Positions 10,217-13,318 of a stretch of DNA of 64,000 bases are shown one piece after another. The notes beneath the pieces were generated by a model. The model saw only the letters and a program-made list of their open reading frames with translations, was not told where the DNA came from and searched no databases. Each line of letters starts with the position of its first letter. Positions within the stretch are counted from its first letter, which is position 1. The DNA is from Paracoccaceae bacterium (lineage in GTDB: Bacteria; Pseudomonadota; Alphaproteobacteria; Rhodobacterales; Rhodobacteraceae), in assembly GCA_009773055.1 (NCBI GenBank), contig WOUW01000007.1:1-64000 (forward strand), given 5' to 3'. The translations under genes were made by a program, and so were the position numbers.

Positions 10217-10540
10217 TCAGCCGCCAACGAGCGGCGGCACGCCATTGGCCGCAAAGCACGCCTGCGCAGCTGGCCGCACGGCGATGGACCGGATCGTGGC
10301 CTTGGTCGCGGTCCCCGCTTCCACCCCCACATCGCGCGCCAAAAGCCGCAGCTCGGCCTCGCTGGATGTGTCCAGAATGCAGTTCGTCGCCTTCCGCGCC
10401 GGGTCCGCCGGCATGTCGATGTTCACGACCGGAAAGACCACCGAATACGCCGTCCGCTTCAACGCGTTGTCGACCAGTTCTGCAGGGTCGCAGGCAGACA
10501 CCGCCATCAACGCCAGTAGGAGAAGGGGCACCCTCAACAT
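10217..10540 (-). CDS. Small putative lipoprotein encoded next to sdhA
   Basis: [21 protein letters not shown] lipobox; TGATG overlap with sdhA stop. Confidence 0.6.
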   Translation of the reverse strand: MLRVPLLLLALMAVSACDPAELVDNALKRTAYSVVFPVVNIDMPADPARKATNCILDTSSEAELRLLARDVGVEAGTATKATIRSIAVRPAAQACFAANGVPPLVGG

Positions 10541-12345
10541 CAGAACTTCCTTTCCGCCGGGGCGATCGTTGTCAGCGCGATCCCGCCTTCTGCCTCGGTG
10601 GTAAGAGGGTCGGTATGCACTGCCCGGTAGTCAAGCGTCACCTTGGCCCCATCCACCCAGGCCAGCGAATGTTTGCGCCAGTTGGCGTCATCCCGCTTCG
10701 GATGGTCCTCGTGCGCGTGGGCGCCGCGGCTTTCGGTCCGGGCATGCGCACCATAGATCGTTGCCAGGGCGTTCGGCATCAGGTTGGTCAGTTCCAGCGT
10801 CTCCATCAGATCGCTGTTCCAGATCAGGCTACGGTCGGTGACGTGCAGGTCATTCATCTTGCCCGCGATCACCGTCATTTTCTTCTCGCCCGCCGCCAGC
10901 GTCTCTTCGGCCCGGAACACCGCCGCATCCGCCTGCATGGTCTTCTGCATCTCCAGCCGCAGGTCCGCCGTCGGCACCGCGCCCTTGGCGTTGCGCAATC
11001 CGTCGAACCGGGCGAGCGACTTTTCTACCTCGGCCTTGTTCGTGCCGGGAACCGCTGCCTCGCGGTCCACCACCGCCCCGGCCCGGATCGCCGCAGCACG
11101 GCCGAACACCACCAGGTCGATCAGAGAGTTCGACCCCAGCCGGTTCGCGCCATGCACGCTGGCGCAGCCCGCCTCGCCCACTGCCATCAGGCCCGGGAAC
11201 ACCGCGTCGGGGCTTGCCGCCGTGGGGTTCAGCACCTCGCCCCAATAGTTCGTCGGGATGCCGCCCATGTTGTAGTGCACGGTCGGCAGCACCGGGATCG
11301 GCTCTTTGTGCAGGTCTACGCCCGCGAAAATCCGGGCGCTTTCCGTGATCCCCGGCAGCCGCAGGTCCAGCGATTCCTTCGGCAGGTGCGACAGGTTCAG
11401 GTGGATGTGGTCGGCATTCGCCCCAACCCCCCGGCCCTCGCGGATCTCGATCGTCATGCAGCGGCTGACATAATCCCGCGGCGCCAGGTCCTTGTAGTGC
11501 GGCGCATAGCGCTCCATGAACCGCTCGCCCGCGCTGTTGGTCAGATACCCGCCCTCGCCCCGCGCGCCTTCGGTGATCAGACAGCCCGACCCATAAATCC
11601 CCGTCGGGTGGAACTGCACGAACTCCATATCTTGCAGCGGCAACCCGGCCCGCGCGACCATCCCGCCACCGTCGCCAGTGCAGGTGTGCGCCGAAGTCGC
11701 GCTGAAATAGGCCCTTCCGTAGCCGCCCGTCGCCAAGACCACCATCTTCGCGTTGAAGACGTGGATCGTGCCGTCATCCAGCTTCCACGCGACGACACCT
11801 GTGCAGGCCCCGTCGGTGATGATCAGGTCCAGCGCGAAGTATTCGATGTAGAACTCGGCGTTGTTCTTCAGTGACTGCCCGTAAAGGGTATGCAGGATCG
11901 CATGCCCCGTCCGGTCCGCCGCCGCACAGGTGCGCTGCACTGGCGGGCCGTTGCCGAACTCGGTCGTGTGCCCGCCAAAGGGCCGCTGGTAGATCTTGCC
12001 TTCTTCCGTGCGGGAAAACGGCACCCCGTAATGCTCCAGCTCGTAGACGGCTTTCGGAGCCTCCCGCGCGAGGTATTCCATTGCATCGGTGTCGCCTAGC
12101 CAGTCGCTGCCCTTCACCGTGTCGTACATGTGCCACTGCCAGTGGTCCGGCCCCATGTTGCCAAGGCTGGCGGCAATCCCGCCCTGCGCAGCAACGGTGT
12201 GGCTGCGGGTCGGGAACACCTTCGTGACGCACGCCGTGCGCAGCCCCTGCTCGGCCATCCCCAGCGTCGCGCGCAAGCCCGCGCCGCCAGCCCCCACCAC
12301 AACCACGTCATATTCATGCGTCTCGTACGGATAGGCAGTCATCAT
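10540..12345 (-). CDS. sdhA: Succinate dehydrogenase flavoprotein subunit
   Basis: [71 protein letters not shown]-type motif ([20 protein letters not shown]). Confidence 0.97.
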
Positions 12346-12353
12346 CAGGTCCT

Positions 12354-12725
12354 TCACAGCGCCATGCGGGCCAGGGCGAACAGCCCCGTCGCGGCGATCA
12401 CCCAGGAAAGCGAAATCACGAAGATGATCAGCATCTTGCGCGTTGTGCCCCGGGCGTAATCCTCGATCATCGTGGTCGCACCCATCGCGAAGTGGCGCAT
12501 CCCGACGACCAGCACCAGCGCCGTCAGGATCGCCGGAAGCGGCCGCGCGAAGGTGTCCAGCACCACGTCACGCGGTGCGCCAAGCGCCTTGCCGAAGATG
12601 TACAGCCAAAGCGGCACCAGAAACGCCAGCCCAACAGCCGAAACCGTCATCGACCAGTGATGCTCGGTCCCGGCATGGCCGGCACCCTTGCCTTCGGCAC
12701 GCTTGCGGGGGGTCAGATAGCGCAT
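12354..12725 (-). CDS. sdhD: Succinate dehydrogenase hydrophobic membrane anchor
   Basis: Three TM segments; [28 protein letters not shown]...[19 protein letters not shown]; operon position. Confidence 0.9.
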
Positions 12726-12732
12726 GTCAGCC

Positions 12733-13140
12733 TCACTGAACCAGAAGAATTGTGATCACAGTCAGCACGACCGACCCGATGATGCAGGCCCAGCCCAGCT
12801 TTTCCGCCGTCGGGATGTCCATCCCGTGCCCTGAGTCATAGTAGAGGTGCCGCAGCCCGGCCAGGTAGTGATACCACACCGCCCACAGCGATCCGGTGAA
12901 CACCAGATCCCCGAACCAGCTGGTCGCAACCGCATCTGCCACCGCAAAGTAGCTGTCCGAGGTTGCCGCCGCCAGCAGCCACCAGACCGCCAGCACCACG
13001 CCCGCGACCAGCGCATGTCCGGTGATCCGCGTCAGGATCGAGGTCAGCATCGGCACTTGCCAGCGATAGATCTGCAGGTGCGGCGAGAGCGGGCGCCCCG
13101 CTGAACCGGCTACGGGCGCGGCCCGCTTTGCGTCTGCCAT
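12733..13140 (-). CDS. sdhC: Succinate dehydrogenase cytochrome b556 subunit
   Basis: RPLSPHLQIYRWQVPMLTSILTRITGHAL...HYLAGLRHLYYDSGHG. Confidence 0.95.
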   Translation of the reverse strand: MADAKRAAPVAGSAGRPLSPHLQIYRWQVPMLTSILTRITGHALVAGVVLAVWWLLAAATSDSYFAVADAVATSWFGDLVFTGSLWAVWYHYLAGLRHLYYDSGHGMDIPTAEKLGWACIIGSVVLTVITILLVQ

Positions 13141-13287
13141 GATCGGTCCTCACGTCTGGCGGCGCGGGTCCAATGCCCTCGCCTGGCTGTCGTTCACCAC
13201 TCTGAATAGCGCGGATTTCGCGCGTGTCACGCCCGGAATGCCGCAACTGCAACATGTTGTCGCTATCAGGTCCGATTTTCTGGGCTT

Positions 13288-13318
13288 TGTGATCACATAT
13301 TTTCTGGGTGTGATCACA
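13288..13318. promoter_or_regulatory. Two perfect TGTGATCACA palindromes at 13288-13297 and 13309-13318, 21 bp apart, upstream of sdhC
   Basis: Direct reading: ttTGTGATCACAtattttctgggTGTGATCACAcaag. Confidence 0.75.

Follow-up and report, generated by a model that had tools for sequence, protein, structure and literature searches.

Paired palindromes upstream of sdhC and sucC as predicted operators of an AkgR-type GntR regulator in a member of the Rhodobacteraceae

The closest described system to the one considered here is the AkgR regulon of Rhodobacter sphaeroides. For the activator AkgR, GTGATCAC has been published as a motif (PMC6365646), and in the same species the GntR protein RSP_0981 has succinyl-CoA synthetase, succinate dehydrogenase and oxoglutarate dehydrogenase as its predicted targets, with the sdh genes, RSP_0974-6, numbered nearby (PMC4344238). 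From family and targets, we infer that RSP_0981 is AkgR; the assignment of AkgR to RSP_0231 was rejected, that gene being motB. Control of succinate dehydrogenase is also predicted for RSP_1663 (PMC4344238). In Pseudomonas simiae, PS417_07240, a GntR-like regulator of deoxyribonate oxidation, is reported to be 32% identical to AkgR (PMC6365646).

Here, we analyse a 64-kb stretch of DNA (hereafter the window) from a member of the Rhodobacteraceae, for which a preliminary description had proposed a candidate TCA regulon marked by a paired palindrome. Judged from the sequence, it is highly likely that an AkgR-type GntR/FCD regulator (C63:44635-45279) has its operators in the paired palindromes, from which it would activate the sdh and suc operons.

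The paired palindromes and their conservation

Both palindromes described upstream of sdhC were confirmed as exact matches to TGTGATCACA, set at a 21-bp step and lying 148-178 bp before the sdhC start (Table 1). Copies of TGTGATCACA with at most one mismatch number seven in the window versus 1.07 expected from shuffles, and no shuffle reached seven. Genome-wide statements derive from pattern searches: the assembly (2.26 Mb in 87 contigs, ~59% complete) holds five perfect copies, every one of them inside the window, and the paired pattern, with up to three mismatches allowed, occurs at sdhC and sucC only, which bears out the earlier impression that, within the window, the pair is restricted to these two TCA operon promoters. 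The sucC promoter had been described as having the same architecture as that of sdhC; the 21-bp spacing is indeed shared, but the sucC array comprises three sites and not two. A third site with at most two mismatches is present in 13 of the 64 sucC promoters, and in most relatives ~118 bp separate the last site of the array from sucC. The array region (22689-22955) is divergent intergenic DNA that also serves a minus-strand gene for a class III aminotransferase (21360 to ~22688), and this gene might respond to the array too.

Conservation at sdhC was assessed in 80 named loci from relatives (e.g. Tabrizicola, Gemmobacter, Pseudorhodobacter and Defluviimonas), which were retrieved by protein. 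The pair was present in 79 of these, usually in the form TGTGATCACG-N11-CGTGATCACA, with 21-bp spacing in 78 and 20-bp spacing in one (L076); the sole exception was L093, where no pair was found at sdhC. All 64 scored sucC promoters carried the pair (62 at 21 bp; L110 and L111 at 20 bp), but loci L094-L123 were found through the motif, and the sucC set is therefore biased in part, whereas the sdhC set is unbiased. The sequences between the sites vary between and within genomes while the sites stay conserved at the two promoters. These counts support the proposed TCA regulon, and the lack of conservation at sdhC that the preliminary description had named as an argument against it was not observed. 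In L044, L056, L059, L073, L076 and L080, mostly Pseudorhodobacter, there is one additional, unpaired perfect copy of TGTGATCACA at a distance of 265 to 341 bp upstream of sdhC.

Across the family, 176 of the 199 Rhodobacteraceae genomes contained a relaxed form of the pair, as a rule at two places each, and the reversed control gave none. In a class-wide sample, the pair occurred in all five Rhodobacteraceae and in five of 380 genomes of other families; none of sdhC, sdhA and sucC was found at the five pair loci outside the family. At L213, a locus from another family, a spaced GTGATCAC pair adjoins a GntR gene whose product is 32% identical to the regulator of the window genome.

Table 1. 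Coordinates of genes, predicted sites and promoter elements (window positions unless a contig is named).
Feature	Position	Strand	Basis or remark
sdhA, flavoprotein subunit	10540..12357	-	TIGR01816
sdhD, membrane anchor subunit	12354..12725	-	PF01127; TIGR02968 just below cut-off
sdhC, succinate dehydrogenase cytochrome b556 subunit, first sdh operon gene	12733..13140	-	TIGR02970, PF01127
Single TGTGATCACA within sdhC 3' end	12751..12760	-	exact match
Predicted sdh -10, TATTCA	13203..13208	-	conserved block 16 bp past -35
Predicted sdh -35, GTGACA	13225..13230	-	conserved block, fixed distance from pair
Degenerate CceR-like operator TGATAGCGACAACA, identity inferred	13255..13268	-	conserved block between pair and predicted -35
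Proximal predicted AkgR-type site, sdh promoter, TGTGATCACA	13288..13297	-	exact; core nearly invariant in 72 non-redundant promoters
Distal predicted AkgR-type site, sdh promoter, TGTGATCACA	13309..13318	-	exact match; kept in 79/80 relatives
sucC array site 1 (extra), TGTGATCACG	22791..22800	+	one mismatch
sucC array site 2, TGTGATCACA	22812..22821	+	exact match
sucC array site 3, TGTGATCACA	22833..22842	+	exact match
sucC, succinate-CoA ligase beta subunit	22956..24149	+	NF001913
Candidate GntR/FCD regulator	G000:C63:44635-45279		PF00392 + PF07729

Promoter anatomy and neighbouring elements

The anatomy of the sdh promoter was derived from 72 non-redundant sdhC promoters aligned on the pair, in which the 8-bp core of the palindrome is nearly invariant. 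Behind the pair, the alignment contains a CceR-operator-like block followed by GTGACA and then TATTCA, the last two 16 bp apart. These hexamers are the predicted -35 and -10 elements of sdh, with a predicted transcription start at about 13196, and the two palindromic sites lie ~117 and ~96 bp upstream of this start. For sucC, the promoter alignment yielded no confident assignment of -35 and -10 elements. Short A-tracts at steps of about two helical turns recur in the sdhC promoters of L014-L093 (offsets 15-18, 39-41, 60-62 and 100-104), and these might bend the promoter DNA.

With at most one mismatch allowed, 22 of 79 sdhC promoters contained the CceR-like sequence TTANCGNTAA at a single shared offset, the window copy being degenerate and not matched, and in sucC promoters it has two preferred offsets. 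RSP_1663 is here taken to be CceR, of the LacI family, and CceR is likely a partner of the regulator that acts at the pair, not itself the binder of TGTGATCACA.

The further single site within the 3' end of sdhC coincides with the codons GTG ATC ACA, which are found there in 33 of 81 rows, ACA making up 62 of the 732 Thr codons elsewhere in sdhC; the outer T before these codons is retained in only 15 of the 33 rows. As evidence for a functional internal site, the codon usage is suggestive, yet inconclusive because the outer base is not retained.

A candidate regulator on another contig

No obvious regulator gene had been noted beside either operon, which is true of the window; the likely regulator is encoded on another contig. 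Five FCD-domain proteins are present in the genome, and the regulator of the pair is very probably the GntR/FCD protein listed in Table 1. In four relatives, orthologues of this protein, ~80% identical, are encoded downstream of sdhC at a distance of 6-9 kb, and in 17 of 63 other genomes no more than 30 kb separate the regulator gene from a pair. Its GntR/FCD class, the motif, the targets and the gene neighbourhood together suggest that the protein is an AkgR orthologue.

The regulator and the pair largely occur together. Among 199 family genomes, 173 have both, 17 have neither, six have the regulator only and three the pair only, an association with a Fisher p of 6e-17 when kinship is ignored. 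One of the six regulator-only genomes (G040) contains a degenerate pair, and in two of the three pair-only genomes, G097 (77% complete) and G115 (320 contigs), the pair is retained at sdhC in assemblies that are incomplete or fragmented. Where both regulator and pair are absent from a genome, the sdhC promoter is also without the pair. On an SdhA tree of 26 genomes, the regulator switches between present and absent at least eight times on the best tree and three times on supported branches; the kinship-aware test offers only three well-supported independent comparisons, of which those differing in the sites all point the same way, although their number is too small to reach significance. In the class-wide sample, the regulator was found at E <= 1e-60 in 5 of 5 Rhodobacteraceae and in none of 380 other genomes.

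The most direct link from sequence between the C63-type protein and the motif is the palindrome in the regulator's own promoter. Seven of the regulator loci retrieved first have a perfect TGTGATCACA no more than 60 bp ahead of the gene, in most cases at ~20 bp and behind a TTGAC box. When two family-wide searches were joined, TTGAC-N-GTGATCAC was found directly before the ATG of at least 64 of the 149 placed regulator genes. For the regulator gene of the genome analysed here, no palindrome was found in the promoter. In many relatives, the single site overlaps the regulator's own promoter, an arrangement that would permit self-repression.

Proposed mechanism, alternatives and comparison with known systems

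We propose that each 10-bp palindrome is probably bound directly by one dimer of the regulator and that, with 21 bp corresponding to two helical turns, two dimers would sit on one face of the DNA. At sdh they would stand ~96 and ~117 bp ahead of the predicted transcription start, and their placement at sucC would be similar. Because the spacing puts both dimers on the same face, they may cooperate, binding together upstream of the sdh operon and of the suc operon (succinyl-CoA synthetase / oxoglutarate dehydrogenase) and activating both, presumably in response to a metabolic signal.

Many GntR/FCD proteins are repressors, and the single own-promoter site, overlapping the promoter, is itself repressor-like. 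It is conceivable, although unlikely, that the same AkgR-type protein binds the pair and represses sdh and suc, but the distance of the sdh pair from the predicted start is activator-like, and the R. sphaeroides protein has been called an activator (PMC6365646). We consider it very unlikely that a different factor, such as a GntR paralogue or some unknown protein, binds the pair and that the correlation with the C63 protein reflects shared ancestry. In favour of this reading, many genomes yield an additional hit to the GntR protein (E <= 1e-40), and comparisons are too scarce in the test that allows for kinship; against it, regulator and pair are both tied to the Rhodobacteraceae, and in at least 64 genomes the palindrome stands immediately ahead of the gene for the regulator.

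The sequences TGTGA and TCACA are CRP half-sites, with which the halves of the palindrome agree. A box of the CRP or FNR type is nevertheless scarcely credible and is ruled out by half-site spacing, given that TGTGA-N6-TCACA needs a six-base spacer whereas the half-sites here are adjacent; the near invariance of the 8-bp core in the 72 promoters also argues against it. The core contains GATC, as a methylation signal would, but that the sites are such a signal or a dispersed repeat without a regulatory role has a negligible chance of being correct. All five perfect copies of the ~59% complete assembly fall in the window, and the copies are conserved at two promoters where the inter-site sequences differ; this placement and conservation rule the reading out and speak against the objection, named in the preliminary description, that the sites might prove to be a known unrelated repeat.

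Activation of both operons by the AkgR-type regulator would give a likely regulator to a signal conserved in the promoters of two central TCA-cycle operons and would widen a regulon known from work on a single species so that it covers most Rhodobacteraceae. The predicted architecture, with two dimers upstream of the promoter at a spacing of two helical turns, is precise and easily testable. A broader picture, to which we lend about equal belief and doubt, is that most Rhodobacteraceae possess a small dedicated TCA switch, in which one GntR regulator acts on essentially two target operons through rotationally fixed double (sometimes triple) operators, with a CceR operator at helical-phase distance in some genomes, and that regulator and sites have been lost together in several lineages.

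Among the known systems, PS417_07240 shares the GTGATCAC palindrome, which has been proposed for that regulator too (PMC6365646), but it differs in having a single site, other target genes and another lineage. With the CceR regulon, the promoters studied here have in common the predicted control of succinate dehydrogenase and, in some sdhC and sucC promoters, a CceR-like operator at a fixed place by the pair, but the CceR operator is a different palindrome from TGTGATCACA. A literature search for the literal motif returned nothing relevant, and no description of the double site, the sucC triple site or self-regulation was found in the literature searched, the original AkgR paper being outside its scope. 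The comparison with AkgR- and CceR-type regulons advised in the preliminary description favours AkgR, which fits by motif, GntR family and targets: GTGATCAC stands at the target promoters, the targets are sdh and suc/oxoglutarate dehydrogenase, and a GntR/FCD gene is present in the genome. With the motif and the GntR target prediction already in the literature, this is therefore best classed as a known TCA regulon, of the AkgR type, in a further Rhodobacteraceae genome. It shares with the R. sphaeroides regulon the GntR family, the motif and the predicted sdh, suc and oxoglutarate dehydrogenase targets, and it differs from AkgR as described in details that our analysis adds, namely the 21-bp double site fixed family-wide, the triple site at sucC and, in many genomes, the own-promoter site with its pattern of putative self-regulation.
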